A DNA stretch of 64,000 nucleotides from Chryseobacterium sp. 3008163 (GTDB lineage Bacteria; Bacteroidota; Bacteroidia; Flavobacteriales; Weeksellaceae): positions 1,612,001 through 1,676,000 of the forward strand of contig NZ_CP033070.1 of assembly GCF_003669035.1 (NCBI RefSeq), in the 5' to 3' direction. The notes under the pieces were generated by a model. It was not told the origin of the DNA. It did not search any database and was given only the letters and a program-made list of their open reading frames with translations. The number at the start of each line of letters is the position of its first letter. The first letter of the stretch is position 1. The translations under genes and the position numbers were made by a program. Shown here in pieces: positions 1,167 through 34,442 of the stretch.

Positions 1167-1763
1167 ATGGGTTTACATGAACGTCGTCAAAGAGAAAAAG
1201 AATCTATCCGTGCAAATATTTTGCAGGCTGCATTCACTTTGGCTAAAGCTGACGGTTGGGCTTCGCTTTCTATCCGTAAAATAGCTGATGCAATTGAGTA
1301 TAGCGCTCCGGTTGTTTACGATCACTTTGAAAACAAAGAAGCGATTTTATATGAAATCTCTATCAATGGGTTTCACTGTTTGCAGATAGAATTACTGAAA
1401 GCTCAGAAAAAACACGAAACTCCCGAAGATCAATTGACAGCAATTGTAGATGCTTACTGGAATTTTGCTTTTAAGAATAAAGAATATTATCAATTGATGT
1501 TCGGTCTTGGAATGCAGTGTAGCGGAAAAGGTTTGATGAAAGAAGAATTTTCGTCTTTCCAGGATATGCTTTACGACTGTACTTTTGAAATTATAAAGAA
1601 GAAAGGTTCAAATGAGAACAATGCTTGTCACTCTTCTCATGCTCTGTTTTCAGCAGTTCACGGATTGATTTCGATTATGATGATGAGAAATGATGACATC
1701 CCTTCAACAATGAATAAAACAACATTAGACGAAACGGTTTCGGCTTTTATTAAATCATTGTAA
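1167..1763 (+). CDS. TetR-family repressor of the efflux operon
   Basis: A TetR/AcrR regulator of 198 residues counted from the ATG at 1167 (MGLHERRQREKES). The N-terminal helix-turn-helix is clear: ILQAAFTLAKADGWASLSI, then RKIADAIEYSAPVVYDHFENKE, the family's 'Y-x-H-F-x-x-K-E' recognition region. The C-terminal part has a TetR_C-type ligand pocket with three cysteines. An upstream in-frame ATG at 1113 would place the start before the promoter and operator and is rejected. It precedes an RND efflux operon and shares operator repeats with it, so it very probably represses the pump and itself until a drug or metabolite binds. The ligand is unknown. Confidence 0.9.
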   Translation: MGLHERRQREKESIRANILQAAFTLAKADGWASLSIRKIADAIEYSAPVVYDHFENKEAILYEISINGFHCLQIELLKAQKKHETPEDQLTAIVDAYWNFAFKNKEYYQLMFGLGMQCSGKGLMKEEFSSFQDMLYDCTFEIIKKKGSNENNACHSSHALFSAVHGLISIMMMRNDDIPSTMNKTTLDETVSAFIKSL

Positions 1764-1783
1764 ATTTTTTTTGAACTAAAAAT

Positions 1784-1807
1784 TAACACCGTTAGGAAAA
1801 GTAACAC
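1784..1807 (+). promoter_or_regulatory. TetR operator copy 1
   Basis: TAACACCGTTA followed seven bases later by another TAACAC half-site. It gives alternating TAAC/GTTA/TAAC half-sites, repeated at 1914 and 2039. Confidence 0.65.
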
Positions 1808-1913
1808 GGAATAATTAACATTATTCAATTATTATAAATTAAAAAAGAAAAAACCGATTAATATGAAACATAACTTTTTTACATTATTTCTGGCAATTTT
1901 TTTTCCTTATCAT

Positions 1914-1937
1914 TAACACCGTTAAGAAAAATAACAC
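1914..1937 (+). promoter_or_regulatory. TetR operator copy 2
   Basis: TAACACCGTTA, then a seven-base spacer and TAACAC; the same arrangement as the copy at 1784. Confidence 0.65.
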
Positions 1938-2038
1938 CGAAAACCTCATTTATATTTAAAATCAACATTAAAAATGTAATTATGGAAATAGCAAAATAAT
2001 CTGCCACTCAAATGATGTTATTTTTTTGCTCTGTTAAT

Positions 2039-2062
2039 TAACACCGTTAGAAAAGATAACAT
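2039..2062 (+). promoter_or_regulatory. TetR operator copy 3
   Basis: TAACACCGTTA, then a seven-base spacer and TAACAT; the copy nearest to the adaptor gene, 61 nt before its ATG. Confidence 0.65.
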
Positions 2063-2122
2063 AATTTAAAATTAAAACAACATTACTTAATCTAACACTT
2101 CATTAAAAAAATAAAACTTAAA

Positions 2123-3283
2123 ATGAAAACAACCGCAAAAGCAAAATTAATCGTACTTATATCGAGTATCATTTTTTTACAAAGTTGCACAAAAGCGGCA
2201 GAAGGCACTAATGCTGCTCCACCCGCTCCAGAATTACCGGTATTTACCGTTACTACTTCACCAGCAACTATTTACCAAGAATTCCCAACCGCATTGGAAG
2301 GAAAAAATAATGTAGAAATCCGTTCACAGGTTGATGGATATTTAGATAGAATTTATGTAGAAGAAGGTGCTTATGTGAGAGCCGGACAAGCATTATTCAA
2401 AATAGATTCAAGAGCTTACGGAGAGCAAATGAATATGGCAAACGCTAATTTACAGGTTGCCAATGCCAACATCCAAAAAGCGAAAGTTGAGGTTGACAGA
2501 CTTCAGCCGTTAGTTGCTGCAAAAGTAGTTTCTGATGTACAATTAAGAACTGCAAAAGCTAATTATGCAGCAGCTGTTGCAGCAGGATCACAGGCAAAAG
2601 CTTCAGTTGGCGGAGCCAGAATCAATGTAGGATTTACAACAATCACAGCACCAGTAAGCGGTTACATCGGAAGAATTCCTTACAAAAAAGGAAGTCTGAT
2701 CTCAAGAACAGATGCCAATCCGTTGACGATGTTATCAGACATCAGTGAAATTTATGCTTACTTCTCTTTAAGCGAATTGGATTTCATTGGTTTCCAGAAA
2801 AAATATCCGGGAGCGACCTTAAACGAAAAACTGAAAAACATGCCGATGGTAGATTTGGTTATCGCCGACAACACCACATATCCTGAAAAAGGTAAAATGA
2901 GCATCGTTGATGGACAGTTTGATAAAACCACAGGAGCAATCAGTGTTCGTGCAGTTTTCCCAAATGCAAACGGAGCATTGAGAACAGGAAATACAGGGAG
3001 AGTTCGTATGCCACAATTATTTGCCAACACGCTAGTTATTCCTCAGGAATCAACCTTTGAAATACAGGATAAAGTCTACGTTTATGTAGTCGGAAAAGAT
3101 AAAAAAGTAACCTCGAAACCTGTAACGATCTCAGGAAAAACAGAAAGCTACTACTTTATCTCTGAGGGAGTTGCAGTTGGTGACAAAATCGTCTACACAG
3201 GAATTGGTGCATTGAAAGATGGAGTTACCATTCAGCCGAAAGCGATTTCATCTGACAGTCTTTTAAGAGCAAGACCATTGTAA
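2123..3283 (+). CDS. RND efflux periplasmic adaptor (membrane fusion lipoprotein)
   Basis: A 386-residue HlyD/AcrA-type adaptor that would link the inner-membrane pump to the outer-membrane factor. It has a lipoprotein signal ending at Cys22 (FLQSC), so it should be anchored by lipid in the periplasm. The lipoyl-like half motif (VEIRSQVDGYLDRIYVEEGAYV), the alpha-hairpin rich in Ala/Asn/Gln (roughly residues 100-160), the second lipoyl half (FTTITAPVSGYIGRI) and the C-terminal beta-barrel and membrane-proximal domains follow in the normal order. It is the first gene of a three-gene operon with the pump (67-bp gap) and the TolC-like factor, under the TetR operators. Confidence 0.95.
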   Translation: MKTTAKAKLIVLISSIIFLQSCTKAAEGTNAAPPAPELPVFTVTTSPATIYQEFPTALEGKNNVEIRSQVDGYLDRIYVEEGAYVRAGQALFKIDSRAYGEQMNMANANLQVANANIQKAKVEVDRLQPLVAAKVVSDVQLRTAKANYAAAVAAGSQAKASVGGARINVGFTTITAPVSGYIGRIPYKKGSLISRTDANPLTMLSDISEIYAYFSLSELDFIGFQKKYPGATLNEKLKNMPMVDLVIADNTTYPEKGKMSIVDGQFDKTTGAISVRAVFPNANGALRTGNTGRVRMPQLFANTLVIPQESTFEIQDKVYVYVVGKDKKVTSKPVTISGKTESYYFISEGVAVGDKIVYTGIGALKDGVTIQPKAISSDSLLRARPL

Positions 3284-3350
3284 AAAGTGTTTAAACTTTT
3301 AATACAAAAGTCAGAAAAGCGTTTAAACAACATTAAAAAATAAACTTCTT

Positions 3351-6300
3351 ATGTTAAAAAAATTCATAGATAGACCGGTACTTTCTACGGTTATCTCCAT
3401 TATATTGTTGTTGTTGGGAGCGATGTCGGTTTTCAACCTTCCGATTACACTGTTTCCCGATATTGCGCCACCAAGTGTGCAGGTGACGGCATTTTATCCG
3501 GGAGCGAATGCAGAAGTTGTTGCCCGTTCCGTTGCGGTTCCGATTGAGGAAGCTGTAAATGGGGTTGAGAATATGACCTACATGACCTCAAATTCAAGTA
3601 ACGATGGATCAATGACCTTGAGTGTATTTTTCAAGCAAGGTTCAGATCCGGATAATGCAGCGGTAAACGTTCAAAACCGTGTTTCAAAAGCGATGAGCCA
3701 GCTTCCGCAAGAGGTTGTACAGGCGGGAATTTCGACTCAGAAAGTTCAGAACAGTATGATTATGTTTATGGGATTGTCAAGTGATGATCCAAAACAATAT
3801 GACGAACTTTTCTTACAGAATTATTTGAAAATCAACGTCATTCCACAGATACAGCGTATCCCGGGAGTTGCTCAGGCGCAGGTTTTCGGTACCAGAGATT
3901 ATTCAATGAGACTTTGGCTGAAACCAGATCGATTGGCTGCTAATAATCTTTCTCCACAGGAAGTTTTGGCAGCAGTAAAAGATCATAATCTTGAAGCCGC
4001 ACCGGGACGTTTGGGACAGGGAAGCAAGGAAACTTACGAGTACATTTTAAAGTATAAAGGTAAATTAAACAAAAATGCAGACTACGAAAACATCGCCATC
4101 AAATCAAACAGTGACGGTTCGTTTTTAAGATTAAAAGATGTTGCGAGAGTAGAATTCGGTTCTTACACGTACACTGCAGCCAACAGAATGGACGGTAAAC
4201 CTGTAGCAGGATTTGCAATTTTGCAAACTGCAGGTTCTAATGCAAACGAAATTTTAACTGATATTGAAAAGCAGGTTGAGCAGATGAAAACTACCCTTCC
4301 AAAAGGAGTTGAGCCCATCATCATGTACAATTCAAAAGACTTTTTGGATGCGTCAATTCATCAGGTAGTTGAGACATTAGTGATTGCATTTATTTTGGTA
4401 TTTATTGTAGTGTACATTTTCCTTCAGGATTTCAGATCTACATTAATTCCTGCGATTGCCGTTCCGGTAGCAATTATCGGTACATTCTTTTTCCTTCAGA
4501 TGTTTGGTTTCAGTATCAATATGTTGACTTTGTTTGCTTTAGTTTTAGCCATTGGAATTGTAGTGGATGATGCAATTGTCGTCGTTGAAGCCGTCCATTC
4601 AAAAATGGAACAGACTGGTATGCCAGTCGAGCAGGCGACTACAAACTCAATGAGTGAAATTTCGGGAGCGATTATTTCCATTACATTGGTGATGTGTGCG
4701 GTGTTTATTCCGGTTGGTTTTATGGAAGGACCTGCAGGAGTTTTCTACAGACAGTTTGCATTTACATTGGTCATTGCGATTTTGATTTCAGCGGTTAATG
4801 CGTTGACTTTAAGTCCTGCTTTATGTGCTTTGTTATTAAATGATCCTCAGGGAGAACATGGCGATCACGGTCAGAAAAAAGGTTTTGGAGCGAAGTTTTT
4901 CAATGCTTTCAACAAAAGCTTCAACAACATGACCAGAAAATACATCTACAGCCTTAAATTTTTAATTAAAAATAAATGGGTTGCGGTTACCGGTTTAGCG
5001 TTACTCACAGCGGCAAGTGTTTTCTTAATTAATAAAGCTCCGACAGGATTTATTCCAACTGAAGATCAGGGATTTGTTTTGTATGCAGTGAATACACCTC
5101 CGGGAAGTTCATTAGACAGAACGCACAGAGCCACTGAACAGATTGATAAAATCATCAACGGTGAAAAAGCCAAAAATCACCTTTGGGTAGCCGACGGAAT
5201 GAACTTCATCAGTAATTCCAATGCTTCTCCTTATGCTGCTGGTTTTATTAAGCTTAAAGACTTTGAAGACCGTGGTGAAGTGAAAGATCCCGATCAGATT
5301 GCTGCGGGCTTGACAGGAAAAGTAGCACAGGTAAAAGATGCCAGTGCATTCTTCTTCAACTTCCCTACCGTACAGGGTTTTGGTAACGTTTCAGGGTTTG
5401 AATTTATGTTGCAGGATAAAACGAACGGTTCTTTTGAGCAGTTGGGAACAACGACTCAGGCATTTATCGGAGAATTGATGAAGCGTCCTGAAATTGCATT
5501 TGCCTTTACAACGTACGCAGCAGGAAATCCTCAATATACAATTGATGTTGATACTGATAAAGCCAATCAACTCGGCGTTTCTATAACCGAATTGATGCAG
5601 ACCATGCAGATTTATTACGGAAGTAGCTTCGTTTCAGATTTCAACAGATTCGGGAAATATTACAGAGTGATGGCACAGGCAGATATTCCTTACAGAACCG
5701 ATGCGAATTCCATGGAAGGAATTTATGTTAAAAATAAAACAGGCGAAATGGTTCCTGTAAAGACTTTGGTAACATTAAAGAGAACTTTCGGACCTGAAAC
5801 GGTTTCAAGAAACAACTTATTCAACGCCGTGACAATCAACGGGACTCCAAAACCTGGTTACAGTACCGGAGATGCTATTAAAGCCGTAGAAGAAGTTGCC
5901 CAAAAATCACTTCCTCGTGGATATGGTTATGAATGGACAGGAATTACCCGTGAAGAAATCAAAACCGGTGGACAGACTGCTTTTGTATTTTTGTTAAGTA
6001 TCATATTTGTGTATTTCCTGTTAGCTGCACAATATGAAAGTTATATCCTTCCGTTTGCGGTTATTCTGACCATTCCCACAGGGGTTTTCGGAGTATTTGC
6101 CTTCACAGGATTGGCTGGAATTGACAACAATATTTATGTTCAGGTTGGATTAATCATGCTCGTCGGATTGTTAGCGAAAAATGCGATTCTGATTGTCGAA
6201 TTTGCCGTTCAACGAAGAAAAGCAGGAAAAACATTGATTGAATCAGCACTTCAGGCTTCAAGATTACGTTTGAGACCTATCCTGATGACTTCATTTGCTT

Positions 6301-11175: not shown

Positions 11176-12195
11176 ATGAGCACCGAAACATTAGAAAAAG
11201 CTAAATCTACACTTCCTGTAAAAGGATTTTTAGATTTAAAAGATATCGCTATTCCTCAAGGAGAAGATTTGGTAAAAGCTATTCTCCAACTGAAAGAAGA
11301 AAAAAATGCCGTTATTCTTGCGCATTATTATCAACCGGGAGAAATTCAGGATATTGCTGATTTCTTGGGAGATTCTCTTCAATTGGCAAGGCAGGCGAAA
11401 GATACAGACGCCGATATGATTGTTTTTTGCGGAGTACATTTCATGGCAGAAGCTGCAAAAATTCTAAACCCAACTAAAAAAGTAGTTCTTCCTGATACAA
11501 TGGCAGGATGCTCTTTGGCAGACGGTTGTTCAGGAGAAGGTTTGAGAAAAATGCGTGAGCAACATCCAAATGCTTTGATTGCAACCTACATCAACTGTAA
11601 TGCAGAAACAAAGGCAGAAAGCGACATCATCGTAACTAGTTCAAACGCTGAAACAGTGATTGAAGCTTTACCGACTGACAGGCCTATTATTTTTGCTCCG
11701 GATAAAAATTTAGGTAGATATTTATCTAAAAAAACCGGACGTGATATGATTCTTTGGGACGGAAGCTGCATAGTCCACGAAGCTTTCTCAATGGAAAGAA
11801 TCGCCCAACAGTTGGCGGATAATCCTGATGCAAAAATGATTGCACACCCGGAAAGTGAAGAAGCAGTTTTAAAATTGGCTCACTTCATCGGTTCGACTTC
11901 TGCGCTTTTGAATTTTGTTGAAAAAGACGACTGTCAGAAATTTATTATCGCAACTGAGGAAGGAATTCTTCACGAAATGAGAAAACGTGCACCACACAAA
12001 GAACTGATTCCTGCTTTGGTTTTTGACGAAAGCTGTAATTGCTCAGAATGTTTTTACATGAAGAGAAATACAATGGAAAAACTGTATCTGTGTATGAAAT
12101 ATGAACTTCCTGAGATTATCATTGAAGAAGAGCTTCGACTGAGAGCACTGAAGCCCATTGAGGCAATGCTCGATCTTTCAAAAAGTATTAAATAA
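11176..12195 (+). CDS. nadA: Quinolinate synthase NadA
   Basis: A 339-residue enzyme that condenses iminoaspartate with dihydroxyacetone phosphate to quinolinate in NAD synthesis, using a 4Fe-4S cluster. The motifs AVILAHYYQPGEIQDIAD, GDSLQLARQA, DMIVFCGVHFMAEAAKIL, and the C-terminal FDESCNCSECFYMKRNTMEK with cluster cysteines are present. I chose the ATG at 11176 (MSTETLEKAK) because the upstream extension from 11092 is low-complexity and unlike the family. The last 16 codons occur again, diverged, at 12535-12585 behind the next small gene. Confidence 0.95.
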   Translation: MSTETLEKAKSTLPVKGFLDLKDIAIPQGEDLVKAILQLKEEKNAVILAHYYQPGEIQDIADFLGDSLQLARQAKDTDADMIVFCGVHFMAEAAKILNPTKKVVLPDTMAGCSLADGCSGEGLRKMREQHPNALIATYINCNAETKAESDIIVTSSNAETVIEALPTDRPIIFAPDKNLGRYLSKKTGRDMILWDGSCIVHEAFSMERIAQQLADNPDAKMIAHPESEEAVLKLAHFIGSTSALLNFVEKDDCQKFIIATEEGILHEMRKRAPHKELIPALVFDESCNCSECFYMKRNTMEKLYLCMKYELPEIIIEEELRLRALKPIEAMLDLSKSIK

Positions 12196-12225
12196 CAAGA
12201 GACTGATACAAAGAAAACACAAGAA

Positions 12226-12471
12226 ATGAATAGTGCATTTAAGAAGGCATTCAAAATATATAAATATTTGGTTTCAATATTTATAGTTGCCTTTTTAATT
12301 TATTTTCTAATTGATGATTATGAATTAGTTATCAATAGTTCTTACTCAACTATGACACTATTTTATTTAATGGCTTTAGTTATTTTTTATGCATTCATTT
12401 TTTCTTGTTGGTTTTGGTTAATAACGTCGATTACTATTATTCTTGATTTTTACACCAAAGAAATTGGATAA
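12226..12471 (+). CDS. Small membrane protein of unknown function
   Basis: An 81-residue protein with two clear hydrophobic segments (about residues 13-30 and 43-72) and a basic N-terminus (AFKKAFKIYKY). I do not recognise a family. It sits 30 bp behind nadA and is trapped between nadA and a duplicate of the nadA 3' end, so it probably arrived in an insertion. It is very A/T-rich compared with nadA. Confidence 0.6.
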   Translation: MNSAFKKAFKIYKYLVSIFIVAFLIYFLIDDYELVINSSYSTMTLFYLMALVIFYAFIFSCWFWLITSITIILDFYTKEIG

Positions 12472-27160: not shown

Positions 27161-30100
27161 TTGCGGAAATTTTTTCTGATATTCTTCGTTTTTCTCTTGG
27201 GCTTATCACTGAATAACGCTCAAATTTTTTCGTGGAAAAATCCGAACCTTCCAAAAGACAGTATAAAGAAAGACAGTATACTTGCAGCAAGGCTTGAACA
27301 GGACATTTTCGCAAAAGACACGATGGATTTTGTAAAGACAAGCAACCGGATTATCGTTGATGAAGCTGTGCTTGCCAAAAATGATAAGAAACGGTTTTTA
27401 GGCGAACTAAATTCTAAAGGTTCAATCATTCGTGGGATTACTTTCGGCAATAATCAGGGGCAGTCTGTACAGAGTTCCATGGATTTACAAATCTCAGGAA
27501 AGCTGTCAAAAGACGTCAGTATTTTAGCTAGTATTTCAGATCACAATTTACCAATCCAGGCCGATGGATACACGCAGACTCTTGAAGAATTTGACAAGAT
27601 CTATATGCAGCTTAATATTAAGGACAAATCAATTCTTAGAGCCGGGCATTTGGATCTTTTAGATGACAAAAATTATTTCGCAAAATACCAGCGACGAAGC
27701 ATGGGACTTCAGTTTCAGACCCAATTTGGAACTGAAAACAAGACATTTGTAGATGTTTCTATGGGTGTGGCACGAAGCGAATTTCACAGAATCCGTTTTC
27801 AGGGTGTGGAAGGCAATCAGGGGCCTTACCGTCTGACCGGAAAGAATGGTGAGCAGTTTATCACATTGATTTCGGGATCAGAACAGGTTTTTATTGACGG
27901 AATTTTAATGAAACGTGGTGAGAACCAGGATTACGTGATTAACTACAACACCGGTGAGGTCACTTTTACAAGTTTCCGACCGATTTTCCAGCAGAATTTT
28001 ATTACGATTTCATTTAATTATACCAACAGAAATTATTCAAGATATTTATTTACAGGAAAGCTTGAACATCAGCGTGAGAAATTCAGAATCGGGCTGAACT
28101 GGTTTATGGAAAATGATAATAAAAATGCACCTTTAGCTTTAAATTTATCCAAAGAAGACGAACAGATTTTAGCCGATGCCGGCAATGATCCCAATCTAAT
28201 GTATGCTCCTTCGGGTGTAGTTACAGAATATGACGTCAACAAAATACTTTACATTCTCGTACCAGACACCAACGGAAATCATTATCAATTTTCCACTGAT
28301 GTTACACAGACTTTGTATACCGTTTCATTTACGTATTTCGGAGTGAATTTGGGAGATTATAAACTGACGCAAACTACCAATAACGGTCGTGTTTTTGAAT
28401 ACGTCGGTCCCAATATGGGGGACTATAGAGCGGTAAGAAAATTGCCTTCTCCACAAAAATCTCAGGTATATACTGTAAATTCAGAATACCTTTTAAAAGA
28501 CGGAAAAATAGGTGCAGACATTTCTCTAAGCAACTATGATCTCAATTTATTTTCTTCAAAAGATTCTGATCAGAACTTAGGATATGCAGCAAGAATTTTT
28601 GGTAATAAAACATTTACAAAAAACAGCTGGAAAGGAACTCCAAGCTTTGAATATCAATACATTGACAAACAATTTCACATCCTCGACCGTATTAATGATG
28701 TGGAATTCTCCAGAGATTTCAACTTAGCTCAGGAATTCAGCGGAAAAACACAAAACAGATTTATCTTCAACTTCCTGAATAAGTGGAATAATAAATCAGC
28801 TTTAAATTATCGTGTCAACTATCTTGACGAACAGGATTCTTACAAAGGAATCAAAAACGAATTAGACTTCAGCTGGATTAAAGGGAAATTCCTGACCAAA
28901 GGAAACTTATCTTATCTGGACACGAATGCTACTTTACAGGACACAAAATTCATCCGTGGAGGCGCTGCCACAGAATATACCGGCAAAAAGGAAGCTGGGC
29001 TTTAGGCGGAAGCATGGAGCACAACGAAAAGAAATTTAATGAAACTCAGCTGATGGATGTCACTAGTTTCAGCTGGAAAGAATTGTTTGTTCAAAAGAAA
29101 ATCGGCGATAGTACAAGAACCAAGCTTTTAGCTAAAATGTATATCAGAGATAATGACTCTGTGCGTGACAACAGACTTCAGAATATGAACAGGATCTTAG
29201 GATTTATGGCAGAAAGTCAGTTAATTAAAACAGAAAAAACCACTTTAAATGCTTTGATTCATTATAGAAAATTCTTCTATAAAAATGAAGATGTAGACAT
29301 GAATCAGAATAAAGATTTTGTTGTAGGAAACATTCTATACAATCAGCAATTATTTAAAAACGGAATGCGCCTGCAGGCCTTCTATGAATTAGGAAATGGA
29401 CAGGAAGCACAACGTGAATTTCAATACATCAAAGTGACAGACGGGCAAGGTGTTTACAAATGGACCGATTACAATGGTGACGGCGTTCAGCAGTTGGATG
29501 AATTTGAAATTGCCGAATACTCAGATTTGGCGCAGTATATCAGGATTTACACCAATTCTGTACGGTATATTCCTTCCAACAAAAACAAATTGCAGTTGGC
29601 GTTATTTGTGAATCCGGCAATTATATTTGATTCAGAAAATAAGTTTTTAAAGCGTTGGAATTTCAATGTTTCATTAAATTCACAAAACTCTTATTTTAAA
29701 AGAGAGAAAGTTTTGGTTTTAAATCCTTTTGAAAAAAGTGATGATCAGATTCTCAAAAACCAGAATATTTTAGCTTCCGTTCAGTTTAATCCAACTGAAA
29801 TATCTGGCTGGAACGGAAATTACCGTTTCATTGCTAACGATAACCTCATCAATGCCAATTTCAGCAACGAAGAAAGAAATCAGACTTCTCATTTCGTGAA
29901 TTTGGGATATTGGTTTAATAAAGAATTCAGGGTCGATTGGGAAAACTCTGTTCATGATTTGCAAAACTCTTCTCAACTTTTTGCAACGAGAGATTACCGA
30001 TTGAATAATTTCGAAACAAAACCAAAAGCAACTTATAAATTTACAGACGCCATACAAGCCGAATTTTCTTCTGCTTACCGAGAAAAGAAAAGAGTGGATG

Positions 30101-30393
30101 GTGAAGAATTTCTGAAAGCTTTTGACATCACCGGAACGCTTCAGTGGGAACGCAAGAAAACTTCCATCAGAGGAAACTTCTCTTTCATCAACAACAACTT
30201 TACCGGAAACAATTTCAGCATCGTAGGAAACCAAATGCTCGACGGTCTTAAACCCGGAAAAAACCAGGTCTGGAGTGTTTTTGTACAGCAGGCAATCAAT
30301 TCATTTTTGCAATTAAATCTGAATTACGAAGGTAGAAACTCAGGTGACCGTACGATTCACATTGGGAGCATGCAGGTGAAGGCGAGTTTTTAA
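27161..30393 (+). CDS. Large outer-membrane beta-barrel protein, unknown function (frameshifted)
   Basis: Two frames, 27161-29005 and 29014-30393, read as one protein of about 1077 residues if one A is restored in the A5 run at 28985-28989 (…YTGKKGSWALGGSMEHNEKK…). It starts at a TTG with a signal peptide (FFLIFFVFLLGLSLNNAQ). A recognisable stretch (VEGNQGPYRLTGKNGEQFI, then SEQVFIDGILMKRGENQDYV, then YNTGEVTF) recurs in very large surface proteins of this phylum. Most of the rest is amphipathic strands ending in aromatic residues and a final F, so it should be a big outer-membrane barrel. It is not SprA, which is twice as long. The function is unknown. Confidence 0.65.
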
Positions 30394-30547: not shown

Positions 30548-30555
30548 TATATTTG
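30548..30555 (+). promoter_or_regulatory. Likely -7 box of the thiamin-regulated operon
   Basis: TATATTTG matches TAnnTTTG; the TPP aptamer begins about 12 nt downstream, which is right for a leader transcript. Confidence 0.65.
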
Positions 30556-30566
30556 TTCAGTAATAA

Positions 30567-30638
30567 ATACACGGGGTGCCGCAAGGCTGAGATCATACCC
30601 GATGACCTGATTTGGATAATGCCAACGTAGGGATGTCT
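30567..30638 (+). promoter_or_regulatory. TPP (THI-box) riboswitch
   Basis: The conserved parts of the thiamin pyrophosphate aptamer are all present in order: ACACGGGGTGC, GGCTGAGATCATACCC, GACCTGATTTGGATAATGCC and AACGTAGGGA. These form the P1 to P5 helices with the CUGAGA pyrimidine-binding loop. It controls the four-gene operon starting at 30720. Between aptamer and first ATG, ATTTTATG (30654-30661) can pair with CATAAAAT (30709-30716), which would put the start region in a stem, so control may be at translation. Confidence 0.95.
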
Positions 30639-30719
30639 GCTTAAAATATTTTCATTTTATGCTTTATTCGTTCGCATGCTTATCTGTGGTCTGAACTGAA
30701 TAAATCAACATAAAATAAA

Positions 30720-31441
30720 ATGGAAGTAACAAAGTATTCCGGAGAACTAATCCCCCAACAAGACAAAAACTGGCAAGGAAGACCTGAATGGTTTTTCAAC
30801 CGAGAACATACCGACACCTACGAATTATGGTATGAAGGCCGGTACAAACGTGCTGAAATCTGGCAAAAAAAGTAATGGAACAGCTCGTTTCCAAAGATCA
30901 GAGAGTTAAAACGTTGTTAGAATTTGGTTGTGGTACTACCCGATTTACCCGTTGGTGGAAGAACATCGGGATTGAAGCCACAGGTGGAGATATTTCACCA
31001 TTAATGTTATCACAGGCAATCCATCTTTTTGAAGGCGATTTGGTAATGGCCGACTCTCATTTCATGCCTTTCAAAGATCACACGTTTGATTCATTGGCAT
31101 TCATCACAACTTTTGAATATTATAAAGATCCCGTAAAAGTTATCAGAGAAGCCGCCCGTGTTGCCAAATACGGAATTGCAATGGGGATGATGAACAGAAA
31201 CTCTCCCAAAGTTGCCCGAAGAAGAGTCCAGCAATTGTTTGGAAAAAACCCTTTCTATGTTACGGCGACTTTCTATACGCCAAAAATGCTGACCGAAATT
31301 ATCGAAAAAGCTTTAGTTGGAAGAAAATACACCATCGAATGGACTTGTACCGGACTTCCAAAATGGTTTCCCGTACAGCAATGGAATGTGCCAGTTGGTG
31401 ATTTTTTTGGTTTATACATTCAGCTAAATGATGTGGAATGA
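30720..31441 (+). CDS. SAM-dependent methyltransferase, first gene of TPP-riboswitch operon (frameshifted)
   Basis: Starting at ATG 30720, a 51-residue segment (W-Q-G-R-P-E-W-F-F-N-R, then YELWYEGRYKRAEIWQKK) runs into a stop but joins the frame of 30875-31441 if one A is missing in the A7 run at 30865-30871. The complete protein is about 240 residues. It has a class I methyltransferase core: LLEFGCGTTRFTRWWKNIG (motif I, SAM), TGGDISPLML (motif II), and DHTFDSLAFITTFEYYKDP (motif IV). It is the first gene behind a TPP riboswitch and its stop overlaps the next start (ATGA). The substrate is unknown; the Trm112-like gene at the end of the operon may encode its activator. Confidence 0.8.
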
Positions 31442-32487
31442 GTGAGACTTTAGGAAAAATAAATCATTCCCAATTTGAAGATTTCCTGAAACAGCGATGT
31501 GGAAAAAAGCGTGATGAAGTTCGTGTTGGTCCAGAGTTTGGCGTAGATGTTTCAGTTGTGGATCTGCATGGCGGAAAAGCGATGGCTTTGACGAGCGATC
31601 CTCTGTCATTGATTCCGTCTCTAGGTTTGGAAGAATCTGCGTGGCTGTCGGTTCATCTGATGGCAAATGACATGGCGACCACAGGTTTCGCACCGATGTT
31701 CGGACAGTTTGTTTTAAATCTTCCGACGCATCTTTCTAAAAATGATTTTGAAACCTACTGGAATTACACCCATCAATTCTGTAAAGATATCGGGGTAAGC
31801 ATTACCGGAGGACATACCGGATTTATTGAAGGGCAAAATTCTACCATAGCAGGCGGCGGAACTTTTATTACGGTCGCTCCGAAAGAAGAAATTTTGGTTT
31901 CAAAATATGCAAAACCCGGCGATTCAATTTTAGTGACCAAAACAAGCGCACTTTCATCTGCAGCCATTTTAGCAATGAGTTTTCCTGAGACTGTAAAAAA
32001 TAAAGTCGGGAAAGAATTTTACTATTCAGCATCGGCTTCCTTTTACGAAACCTCATCATTGAAAGATGCTTTGACTGCCGTACAAAATGAGAATTCAGGA
32101 GTGACAGCCATGCATGATGTGACAGAAGGTGGAGTTTTGGGAGCTATTTACGAATTGGCGATTGCGTCAGGAAATGGAGCTGAAATTTTTAACGAAAAAC
32201 TTCCGATTGGAGAGGTGCAGTCCGCTGTTTGTAATCTGTTCGCTTTGGATCCCAGATATTGTATTGGTGCGGGTTCTATGATTATTACCTGTAAAAAAGA
32301 GAAGGCTTCGGAAATTATTTCGAGATTGGAAACTAATCATATTCCATGTACAGAAGTTGGAACGATTACCGAAAAATCTGCGGGAATTAAATTAATTGAA
32401 AACGAAAAAGCAAATGATTTAATGTATTTCGAAGAAGACCCTTACTGGAAAGCTTTTTTTAACGCTTATAAAAACGGCTGGAAATAA
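31438..32487 (+). CDS. AIR synthase-related (PurM/HypE/ThiL-like) protein
   Basis: A 349-residue protein of the PurM superfamily of ATP-binding enzymes. N-terminal motif [14 protein letters not shown] stands where ThiL, HypE and SelD have the G-D-D-A-A motif; LMANDMATTGFAP and ISITGGHTGF-type GGHT follow; then GDSILVTKT opens the second domain; MHDVTEGGVLGAIYELA near residue 222 is close to HypE-type proteins. It may phosphorylate or dehydrate a thiamin-related compound (ThiL is a member of the superfamily), but it lacks the classic ThiL motif. It overlaps the methyltransferase by 4 bp and the ThiE-like gene by 1 bp. Confidence 0.8.
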   Translation: MSETLGKINHSQFEDFLKQRCGKKRDEVRVGPEFGVDVSVVDLHGGKAMALTSDPLSLIPSLGLEESAWLSVHLMANDMATTGFAPMFGQFVLNLPTHLSKNDFETYWNYTHQFCKDIGVSITGGHTGFIEGQNSTIAGGGTFITVAPKEEILVSKYAKPGDSILVTKTSALSSAAILAMSFPETVKNKVGKEFYYSASASFYETSSLKDALTAVQNENSGVTAMHDVTEGGVLGAIYELAIASGNGAEIFNEKLPIGEVQSAVCNLFALDPRYCIGAGSMIITCKKEKASEIISRLETNHIPCTEVGTITEKSAGIKLIENEKANDLMYFEEDPYWKAFFNAYKNGWK

Positions 32488-33116
32488 TGAAAAAGCAAAC
32501 CATAGAATCCGGAATTTATTTAATCATTGATCCTGCGATGGATGAGAAAATTCTTTTTCCCAAATTAAATTTAATTGTAAAAGAGAACATTGCAGTAATT
32601 CAGGTTTGGGATCACTTCAAAGAAAATCAGAATATTGAAGAACTGCTTTTGAAAATTTATGCAAAAACTTCTTTACATAGCATTCCTTTAATCATCAATA
32701 ATCGCTGGGAACTTTTAAAACAAAATCCTTTGGATGGAATTCATTTTGATGAGATTCCTGAAAATTTCAATCAAATAAAAAAAGAAATCAATGGTGATTT
32801 TATCGTTGGAATTACCTGCAACAATGAGCTTTCAACGATTGAGTATGCGGAAAAACATCAGTACGATTATATCTCTTTCTGCTCAATGTTTCCGTCAAAA
32901 ACCGCAAACAGTTGTGAACTGGTGAGTTTTGATACTGTTCAGAAAGCAAAAAGTATTTTCAGCGGAAAAATTTTCTTAGCCGGAGGAATTGATTTAAATA
33001 ATATCAAAAATTTAGATGAATTAAATTATGACGGAATCGCTGTCGTTTCAGGAATTATGAGTGCAGAAAACCCTTCAGAAACTATTAAAAATTATCATCA
33101 AAAATTAAAAAAATAA
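32487..33116 (+). CDS. ThiE-like (thiamin phosphate synthase family) protein, divergent
   Basis: A 209-residue TIM-barrel protein of the ThiE/TenI family. Recognisable are SGIYLIIDP (usual GLYLITD), PLIINNRWELL (usual IINDRxDIA), DGIHFDE (usual DGVHLGQ), FLAGGIDLNNI (usual AIGGI) and YDGIAVVSGIM (usual GVAVVSAI). The catalytic QLRxK stretch is replaced by IQVWDHFKE, and the FPTxTK loop by FPSKTANSCELV. So the fold and the thiamin context fit, but the substrate may differ from that of normal ThiE. It is translationally coupled to the upstream gene (TAATG). Confidence 0.8.
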   Translation: MKKQTIESGIYLIIDPAMDEKILFPKLNLIVKENIAVIQVWDHFKENQNIEELLLKIYAKTSLHSIPLIINNRWELLKQNPLDGIHFDEIPENFNQIKKEINGDFIVGITCNNELSTIEYAEKHQYDYISFCSMFPSKTANSCELVSFDTVQKAKSIFSGKIFLAGGIDLNNIKNLDELNYDGIAVVSGIMSAENPSETIKNYHQKLKK

Positions 33117-33120
33117 AACA

Positions 33121-33387
33121 ATGAGAATAAAAACCATAGAAAAATTGTGCTGTCCGTTTGACAAGTCAGATTTAAATTTAACCATCATTTCACAAGATGA
33201 AACTGAAAACATAACTGAAGGTTTATTAATTTGTGACAACTGCAAGAGAGTCTACCCAATCATCAGCGGAATCCCCATTATGTCACCCGACGAATACCGT
33301 GAATTTAAACTGGAACAACCCGTTTTAGAACGCTGGGAAAAACATTTAGAAGGCAAAAAAGTGGAGAATTTCAGATTGATTTCTTAA
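33121..33387 (+). CDS. Trm112-like small zinc-ribbon protein
   Basis: An 88-residue protein of the Trm112/YbaR type. The first metal knuckle reads L-C-C-P-F-D (an Asp where a second Cys is usual); the second is I-C-D-N-C-K-R-V-Y-P-I; and the closing SGIPIMSPDE is the family's P-I-x-x-G-I-P-x-M. In eukaryotes and some bacteria, Trm112 binds and activates methyltransferases. It is the last gene of a TPP-controlled operon whose first gene is a methyltransferase, which suggests the two proteins work together; this is inference. Confidence 0.8.
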   Translation: MRIKTIEKLCCPFDKSDLNLTIISQDETENITEGLLICDNCKRVYPIISGIPIMSPDEYREFKLEQPVLERWEKHLEGKKVENFRLIS

Positions 33388-33447: not shown

Positions 33448-34442
33448 ATGATAAAAATAGGCAACATAGAACTGCCGGAATTTCCGCTTTTGCTCGCTCC
33501 GATGGAAGATGTAAGTGATCCGCCGTACAGACGACTGTGTAAATTACATGGTGCAGATATGATGTATTCAGAATTTATCTCTTCTGAGGGCTTGATTCGC
33601 GATGCGATGAAGAGTAGAAAGAAGCTGGATATTTTCGATTATGAAAGACCTGTGGGAATCCAAATTTTTGGTGGTGATGAAGAAGCGATGGCGATGTCTG
33701 CAAGAATTGTGGAAACCGTAAACCCTGATTTGGTGGACATCAATTTTGGTTGTCCGGTAAAAAAGTGGTTTGCAAAGGTGCAGGAGCCGGAGTTTTGAAA
33801 GATGTTGACATGATGGTTCGTTTAACGAAAGCTGTTGTAAGTTCTACAAGTCTTCCTGTGACGGTGAAAACCCGTTTGGGATGGGACAGCAACTCAATCA
33901 ATATTGATGAGGTTGCAGAACGTCTTCAGGAAACGGGAATCAAAGCTTTGACGATTCACGCAAGAACGCGCGGACAAATGTATAAAGGTGAAGCTGACTG
34001 GGAACACATTTCAAGAATCAAACAAAACCCAAACATTGAAATTCCTATTTTTGGAAACGGTGATATAGATTCTCCCGAAAAAGCTTTAGAATATAAAAAT
34101 AAATACGCTTGCGACGGAATTATGATTGGCCGTGCTGCGATTGGTTATCCGTGGATCTTTAATGAGATCAAACATTTCTTTGCAACCGGAGAACATCTTG
34201 ATGCACCCACAATTTCAGACCGACTTTTGGCTGTTCGCCAACACGCTGAATGGAGCGCAGAATGGAAAGGGGAAAAATTAGGATTGATCGAAATGAGACA
34301 GCATTACAGCAATTATTTCCGTGGAATTCCTCATTTTAAAGATTTTAGAAGAAAATTTTTGGAAGTATATTCTTTGGTTGAAATGGATGAAGTAATCAAA
34401 GAAACTCAAGGGTTTTATGAGGAATATCAGGCACAGGTTTAA
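33448..34442 (+). CDS. tRNA-dihydrouridine synthase (DusB-like; frameshifted)
   Basis: An FMN enzyme that reduces uridine to dihydrouridine in tRNA D-loops. Two frames (33448-33798 and 33750-34442) join into a normal protein of about 331 residues if one A is restored in the A6 run at 33759-33764, giving the family sequence DINFGCPVKKVVCKGAGAG. Further motifs are APMEDVSDPPYRRLCK, KTRLGWDSNSINIDE, IHARTRGQMYKGEADWE, GNGDI, and DGIMIGRAAIGYPWIF. The FGCPVKKV catalytic-cysteine region falls exactly on the break. As the flanks are perfect, an assembly error is likely. Confidence 0.93.

Follow-up and report, generated by a model that had tools for sequence, protein, structure and literature searches.

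What function does a TPP riboswitch control when it stands ahead of a methyltransferase, a PurM-like protein, a ThiE-like barrel and a Trm112-like protein? This question is raised by a locus of Chryseobacterium sp. 3008163 that lies in the window, the whole 64,000-nucleotide stretch of DNA analysed here. Comparison with related sequences leads us to propose that the four genes form a module, transferred horizontally, that supplies thiamin phosphate without recourse to HMP-PP and probably acts in salvage or repair, a reading to which we assign a probability of roughly 0.45.

A TPP riboswitch and four linked genes

The first-pass annotation had placed a TPP aptamer ahead of the four genes, and Rfam agrees (Table 1). 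The junctions are as it had described them, with an ATGA overlap (31438-31441), a TAATG overlap (32485-32489) and 4 bp separating the third gene from the fourth, which starts at 33121, and the families it had named all score over their Pfam cut-offs (Methyltransf_11, AIRS/AIRS_C, TMP-TENI and Trm112p). Relatives were examined as the best 80 of 282 found, picked by similarity. A motif search places the riboswitch core 5′ of the methyltransferase gene in 80 of these 80, and RF00059 reaches its Rfam gathering score in seven of the seven relatives tested. A terminator-like hairpin follows the aptamer in 67 of 78 relatives versus 35 of 78 single shuffles, which are a weak control; the leader in the window folds no better than its shuffles (z -0.67).

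Table 1. Positions of the riboswitch and of the operon genes within the window
Feature	Position	Strand	Basis
TPP riboswitch aptamer (RF00059)	30562..30650	+	cmscan 69.7 bits, Rfam gathering score 54.3
Expression-platform region	30651..30719	+	no more than a weak AT-rich hairpin in the window's copy
Methyltransferase N-terminal part, 51 codons and stop, out of frame	30720..30875	+	same residues start a full-length-size ORF in relatives
Class I SAM methyltransferase, remaining 188 aa	30875..31441	+	Pfam PF08241
PurM/HypE/ThiL-superfamily ATP-dependent enzyme (AIR synthase family protein)	31438..32487	+	Pfam AIRS/AIRS_C
ThiE-fold barrel, invariant C132 and C143, without the presumed HMP-PP/Mg residues	32487..33116	+	TMP-TENI (Pfam)
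Trm112-like zinc protein, four invariant Cys (C10, C11, C38, C41)	33121..33387	+	Pfam PF03966

The operon is conserved as a unit, with all four genes in order in 79 of the same best 80 of 282, and the first-pass proposal of a thiamin-related system survives this check of whether the genes are rarely neighbours in relatives. Sequence identities further indicate that the operon has moved between orders horizontally, as a block. No widely recurring fifth gene is seen among the relatives examined: among the 79 loci that have a Trm112 gene, 16 show a same-strand gene within 120 bp downstream, which is the dusB-like gene in seven loci, all from Chryseobacterium relatives, and varies in the others. 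Exact peptide patterns, which could miss divergent copies, found no methyltransferase or PurM-like protein of this cassette on viral contigs, and plasmids carry only distant homologues, none of which reaches 60% identity (68 PurM-like records and nine methyltransferase records).

Canonical thiamin genes in carriers and in the genus

At E 1e-60 the cassette PurM-like protein occurs in a single genome of a 149-genome class sample, the window's own, and co-distribution was therefore assessed in the carriers and across the genus. The 50 carrier genomes are the window's own and 49 behind the 80 loci, the latter chosen for diversity and isolate status, and many are drafts. Carriers include Chryseobacterium sp. 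Leaf394 (L018), a strain of the At-LSPHERE collection, as well as Pedobacter chinensis and an Algoriphagus. In 45 of the 50, none of ThiC, ThiG, full-length ThiD or canonical ThiE occurs; with ThiC retained by five carriers and ThiG by four, the module cannot count as a strict substitute for the canonical pathway. The window's own genome gave no match to ThiC, ThiG or ThiD at the limits used, and it encodes a canonical ThiL elsewhere (312 bits) and likely thiamin importers. ThiL was rejected as a tracking gene since it is present nearly everywhere (51/51 genome records searched, 147/149 class genomes). The expectation that the operon tracks with missing thi genes thus fails for ThiL and is borne out by ThiD and canonical ThiE, as well as by ThiC and ThiG, which are mostly missing. 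With the riboswitch present in every relative examined and the canonical pathway in so few carriers, the proposed link to thiamin is supported.

Individual genomes add detail. A candidate decaying ThiC in genome G151 was rejected on finding that the match is an intact, divergent 360-aa ThiC-family protein. The gene for this protein adjoins a ThsA-like SIR2 gene. Genome G196 yielded no more than a fragment of ThiD and a ThiE-family fragment that carries an internal stop. Across 169 Chryseobacterium genomes, counts read by eye give canonical ThiE in 149, only cassette-type ThiE in 12 and no ThiE-family match in eight. Six of the 12 are verified, being the window's own genome and five that agree in E-value with verified carriers, and the E-values of the other six fit the 89.7-98.9 bits of nine Chryseobacterium ThiE-like proteins, three of which come from verified cassette loci. 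Because the matches listed stop at 145.7 bits, leaving out part of the extra matches in genomes with two, three or four, a cassette may be hidden in a genus genome with canonical ThiE, likeliest G226 (three matches) or G355 (four). Fisher values computed on these data count species as independent, and the genus one presumes that there is no hidden cassette. Same-genus genome G020 has the canonical operon order ThiC-TenI-ThiD-ThiE-ThiG-ThiH-ThiF.

The same distribution could be produced by a cassette that makes thiamin outright, independently of ThiC and ThiG. Here the methyltransferase-Trm112 pair would methylate common metabolites, the PurM-like protein would activate them with ATP, and the barrel would be the site of assembly, with one of its cysteines perhaps serving as the sulfur donor. 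Such a pathway would account for the complementarity with canonical ThiE in the genus, for the missing canonical genes in 45 of 50 carriers, for apparent block transfer without a transporter and for two barrel cysteines, C132 and C143, that are invariant in 80 of 80 aligned rows; the enzyme types, too, would be expected to build rather than break molecules. Three enzymatic activities nevertheless seem too few for a whole route, and importers would hardly be expected to be kept in the window's genome. Every thiamine prototroph of a leaf collection, moreover, had ThiC (21 of 21 in Table 1 of PMC9666465, where cassette status is not stated). We find it doubtful that the four proteins perform a complete biosynthesis, and equally doubtful that a compact, mobile pathway without ThiC, ThiG, ThiD or canonical ThiE is displacing the classical operon in Bacteroidota.

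The four proteins and the interrupted methyltransferase frame

The methyltransferase and the Trm112-like protein are each similar to one chain of the solved Trm112 complex 6F5Z. The fold predicted, at modest confidence, for an intact methyltransferase relative is close to 1vlm and to Hvo_0019 of 6F5Z, and Bud23 is among both the sequence and the structural matches. By analogy, the two operon proteins are likely to be partners in one enzyme. The small protein reaches 38.5 bits with Pfam PF03966, over the cut-off of 22, and 61 bits with NCBIfam NF038101 (methyltransferase partner Trm112), under the cut-off of 77. Trm112-dependent methyltransferases frequently target tRNA, rRNA or release factors, and the methyltransferase is the best-conserved operon member (median pairwise identity 80% versus 47% for the barrel). 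Both observations, along with the Bud23 match, would suit a riboswitch whose target lies outside thiamin supply, such as TPP-responsive RNA or protein methylation or the use of thiamin for another product. We judge this unlikely, as a ThiE-fold partner shares the operon in 79 of 80 loci and a side function does not predict that canonical thiamin genes are missing in most carriers.

On the methyltransferase the first-pass annotation needs correction, as it overlooked a 5′ truncation of this gene in the assembly: the N-terminus is encoded in another frame as a 51-codon ORF (30720-30872, stop at 30873-30875). In 80 of 80 relatives (best 80 of 282) a single frame of full-length size encodes the protein. 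An assembly error is likely because homopolymer runs also split two other genes no more than a few kb away, the dusB-like one downstream and another upstream. Programmed frameshifting at the junction was rejected on the basis of the single open frame in all 80 relatives and the two neighbours broken alike. The interrupted frame could also be real, with an operon that functions elsewhere decaying in the window's genome, but this is quite improbable given that the two similarly interrupted genes are unrelated, that such breaks would be expected of an uncorrected long-read assembly, and that none of the other three operon genes is interrupted, though the barrel is three residues shorter than that of C. 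aahli.

The PurM-like protein does not reach the curated NCBIfam cut-off for HypE (TIGR02124, 78.8 versus 251.6 bits), ThiL (TIGR01379, 78.0 versus 184.15), SelD (TIGR00476, 55.8 versus 125) or PurM (TIGR00878, 22.5 versus 236.35). A C-terminal cysteine tail is a feature of HypE; it is missing here, and 16 of 16 aligned proteins end in WK. Outside Bacteroidota the family adjoins thiamin-transport genes in three Haloarcula records, but the records viewed from Halobacterium, Acaryochloris, Haloferax and Acetoanaerobium show no such neighbours, which counts against a supply role.

The barrel has a clear ThiE fold and retains the GG phosphate loop found at the ThiE site, yet scores 95.6 bits with TIGR00693 (ThiE), under the curated cut-off of 145.1, and 53.8 versus 251 bits with the TenI profile NF005819. 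In alignments, the residues presumed to be the HMP-PP/Mg ligands of ThiE (R59, K61, D93, D112 and K159) correspond to W41, N/H43, N72, P91 and A140. The catalytic His of TenI, which lies in the ..S.H. loop, is also absent, the loop reading G-I-T-C-N-N. The known route to HMP-PP requires full-length ThiD. With the presumed ligands replaced and ThiD missing as well, the barrel is unlikely to act as an ordinary thiamin-phosphate synthase. That the barrel is an ordinary divergent synthase joining HMP-PP to thiazole phosphate, with accessory genes beside it, would fit its ThiE fold, its TIGR00693 match and the name thiamine phosphate synthase in public records, but is scarcely credible with a score under the cut-off, the ligands replaced and full-length ThiD missing in 45 of 50 carriers.

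A putative supply module and its known counterparts

The preferred reading is that a self-contained module supplies thiamin phosphate to Bacteroidota that do without the usual pathway, and that abundant TPP turns it off. As one enzyme, the methyltransferase and the Trm112-like protein would act with the PurM-like ATPase to prepare a thiamin-related precursor other than HMP-PP, the barrel, with its GG phosphate loop, would complete thiamin monophosphate, and resident ThiL would convert the product to TPP. As a first guess, the precursor would be a salvaged or damaged thiamin-related compound. AIR synthase activates an N-formyl group with ATP, and one could speculate, at long odds, that the PurM-like enzyme does the same, closing or re-closing the thiazolium ring. 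Position, regulation and phylogenetic pattern support the original proposal of a new branch of thiamin metabolism, be it synthesis, salvage or repair; which branch, and by what chemistry, we infer. Counting against a supply role, the operon has no transporter gene, and we know of no salvage route with an obvious place for methyl transfer. A further counterpoint is that life without either route is possible, since eight genus members have no ThiE-family match.

Open-access papers, screened by title and start of abstract, included none describing this gene set. That the operon appears to travel as a block between distantly related bacteria, most of them without the normal B1 pathway, suggests that these bacteria acquire vitamin B1 in a way not yet described. 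A species lacking ThiC and ThiG is normally classed as a thiamin auxotroph, and some of these assignments would be wrong if thiamin phosphate is made or rescued by this small, portable module. It would also represent new cofactor chemistry, bringing a methyltransferase of Trm112 type and a PurM-like ATPase into vitamin B1 metabolism.

Several known systems share features with the operon. The FAMP/TenA-YlmB and HMP/HET routes salvage thiamin breakdown products, and rescue of such products is a possible common role; the operon differs in having no hydrolase, ThiM or transporter, and most of its carriers are without full-length ThiD. Its PurM-like protein shares the AIRS N- and C-terminal domains of the HypE/ThiL/SelD/PurM superfamily but scores far under the curated cut-offs of all four members. 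The putative methyltransferase-Trm112 complex resembles archaeal Trm112-Hvo_0019 (6F5Z) and Bud23-Trm112, and differs in being bacterial and TPP-controlled. Compared with ThiE and TenI, the barrel has replaced the presumed HMP-PP/Mg residues, has no TenI His and has gained the invariant C132 and C143. The canonical thi operon of Bacteroidota likewise has a ThiE-fold protein, a resident ThiL and control by a TPP riboswitch, the last described for thiSEGCHF-tenI of B. thetaiotaomicron in PMC5613172. In contrast to that operon, the four-gene operon is without ThiC, ThiD, ThiG, ThiH and ThiF, and has a methyltransferase, a PurM-like protein and Trm112.

Conservation and probable transfer of the four-gene operon

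The first-pass annotation proposed that a TPP aptamer precedes four joined genes. The aptamer passes the Rfam gathering score (table), and the gene types and the junctions between them are as annotated, with the downstream methyltransferase, AIRS/AIRS_C, TMP-TENI and Trm112p proteins all exceeding Pfam cut-offs. The methyltransferase is not whole as drawn there, since its N-terminus is encoded just upstream in another frame; all 80 relatives retained for comparison (best 80 of 282) have it in one uninterrupted frame, at the full-length size of about 240 aa. The window is 95% identical to C. aahli over 12 kb from the operon onward, and comparison with this species shows two more genes within a few kb split at homopolymer runs, namely a large upstream gene, undivided in relative L019 at about 1100 aa (median over 8 loci, 1086 aa), and a dusB-like gene downstream. 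Because these two neighbors are broken likewise, we read the methyltransferase break as an assembly error rather than biology, and all three splits are likely of this origin.

Features of the window and of related loci
Feature	Sequence	Coordinates	Remarks
Large upstream gene	window	27161-30393	split into two frames at a homopolymer run
TPP riboswitch	window	30562-30650	69.7 bits; Rfam gathering score 54.3
Methyltransferase N-terminal ORF	window	30720-30872	51 codons, in another frame than the remainder
dusB-like downstream gene	window	33448-34442	split into two frames at a homopolymer run; one ORF in Chryseobacterium relatives
Region of a TPP-riboswitch-related element and the PnuT-like transporter after it	L008, window's genome	2502-4246	52.5 bits, just under Rfam cut-off
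Region of a TPP-riboswitch-related element and the TonB-dependent receptor after it	L009, window's genome	2411-4507	45.6 bits, under Rfam cut-off
Cobalamin riboswitch	L080, Chitinophagaceae MAG	12042-12233	97 bits
Region of a ThsA-like SIR2-STALD gene and the ThiC-family protein after it	L136, Chryseobacterium kimseyorum	1608-5615	

Scanning GTDB species genomes with the PurM-like protein returned 282 relatives, and the best 80, which we take, judging by record titles, to be Bacteroidota throughout (Flavobacteriales, Sphingobacteriales, Cytophagales, Chitinophagales and Bacteroidales-type lineages), were retained. Whether the four genes recur together under TPP riboswitches was proposed earlier as a check, and in this set they do: gene order and strand are the same in 79 of the 80, and a 29-nt riboswitch core lies on the upstream side of the methyltransferase in 80 of 80 (typed consensus with 8 differences allowed, 3 to 6 found), with the Rfam gathering score passed by 7 of 7 relatives tested. 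The exception in gene order is L067, where the sequence stops 148 bp past the PurM-like match and a ThiE-family match sits at the start of a different contig of the same genome. Within 9 kb, no additional gene family is common to more than 11 of the 80 loci. One locus, L080, carries a cobalamin riboswitch shortly downstream of the cassette.

Terminator-like hairpins occur between aptamer and start codon at 67 of 78 loci, compared with 35 of 78 single shuffles, a weak control (two loci with no start or motif placed were left out), and several relatives have leaders with a clear stem and T run. It is thus plausible that the relatives' switch is of the OFF type and acts by terminating transcription. 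In the window itself the hairpin is weak, and shuffled sequences fold at least as well as the leader.

Identities between Pedobacter chinensis and Ferruginibacter paludis reach 87% for the PurM-like protein and 95% for the methyltransferase, and those between Arenibacter and Algoriphagus alkaliphilus reach 83% and 91%, whereas two Pedobacter species share just 57% and 74%. Since pairwise identities of the four genes also correlate (r 0.51 to 0.84, 79 loci), the cassette appears to travel across orders as one unit. It is rare, occurring in 1 of 149 genomes of the Bacteroidia sample, the window's own. A single contig of Arenibacter sp. F26102 holds two copies separated by about 32 kb, whose PurM-like proteins are 92% identical.

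The canonical thiamin pathway in cassette-bearing genomes

Tracking of the cassette with missing thi genes, proposed earlier as a check, held for ThiC, ThiG, ThiD and canonical ThiE, which are mostly absent from the 50 carriers searched (the window's genome and 49 behind the relatives' loci), and failed for ThiL, which all 51 genome entries searched and 147 of the 149 genomes of the class sample contain and which so does not discriminate. Full ThiC was found in 5 of 50 carriers and ThiG in 4. With 139 bits as the lower limit, 5 carriers have a full-length ThiD-like match and 5 a canonical ThiE (four above cut-off, one at 139.9). The carriers positive for ThiC, ThiD and ThiE are the same five genomes, and ThiG is missing from one, Gramella AN32. 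Set aside were a divergent ThiC-family protein (G151, 167 bits), a ThiD fragment (G196, 107.6 bits) and, from 8 carriers, partial matches scoring 43-59 bits; the curated ThiD cut-off was reached by none, including the ThiD (138.7 bits) of the classical operon in G020, a genome of the same genus without the cassette. A single ThiE-family match, taken as the cassette barrel, is present in 39 of 50 carriers. ThiC occurs in 47 of 149 class genomes, and its frequency in carriers differs from that in the class with the window's genome removed (5/50 against 47/148; Fisher p 0.003). Across the class sample, ThiL is far commoner than ThiC (147 against 47 of 149); thiamin auxotrophs there keep the TMP kinase.

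Within the genus, with classes assigned by reading result rows of the ThiE model, canonical ThiE, with a best E at or below 1.1e-39, is present in 149 of 169 genomes. Another 12 show a single match, in the cassette range (E 1e-24 to 1e-28), and the remaining 8 do not match the model. The corresponding Fisher value of 2e-13 assumes that no cassette is hidden among the 149 and that species are independent, neither of which is proven.

At L136 an intact 360-aa ThiC-family radical SAM protein directly follows a ThsA-like SIR2-STALD gene (PADLOC 227 bits) adjoined by HsdM, possibly a defense system that includes a ThiC-like enzyme. Homologues of like length are common (1180 matches, best 120 viewed).

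Proposed function and known thiamin operons

We favor, at a probability of roughly 0.45, a transferred module in which the cassette would make thiamin monophosphate by chemistry bypassing HMP-PP and pass it to the resident ThiL, probably for salvage or repair. In the window's genome, TPP-riboswitch-related elements precede a PnuT-like transporter and a TonB-dependent receptor, which makes uptake of thiamin-like compounds probable, and salvage or repair is favored for that reason. The same likely import weighs against a full alternative thiamin route encoded by the cassette, an appreciably less probable reading that draws on the builder type of the cassette enzymes, their complementarity with canonical ThiE, and a cassette devoid of transporters. 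In a study of leaf bacteria, ThiC is reported in all 21 thiamine prototrophs and in 7% of the 14 auxotrophs; this would count against de novo synthesis only if the strains tested included a cassette carrier (PMC9666465). The PnuT-like transporter gene overlaps one that weakly resembles acyl-CoA dehydrogenases (21.2 bits in Pfam) and may be an unexplained part of the thiamin regulon.

The PurM-like protein of the proposed salvage module falls between HypE (78.8 bits, cut-off 251.6), ThiL (78.0, cut-off 184.15) and SelD without reaching any of their cut-offs. Names borne by its homologues, among the best 120 of 1925, are AIR synthase family protein, hydrogenase maturation factor and HypE. The closest plasmid-borne homologues outside Bacteroidota are 31-32% identical. 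On three Haloarcula plasmid records such a homologue lies in divergent orientation next to genes for a thiamine ABC substrate-binding protein and an MTH1187-type thiamine-binding protein. This suggestive association is confined to a single genus and counts once rather than three times; the records viewed from Halobacterium, Acaryochloris, Haloferax (two) and Acetoanaerobium have no thiamine genes beside it.

Operons described for gut Bacteroidetes include thiSEGCHF-tenI, OMthi and pnuT-tnr3, and the terms "methyltransferase" and "AIR synth" are absent from the main text of that paper (PMC5613172). We found no description of this four-gene set in the open-access literature searched. TPP-controlled thiamin operons are of a known kind, and to our knowledge the content of this one and the chemistry that it would imply are without precedent.
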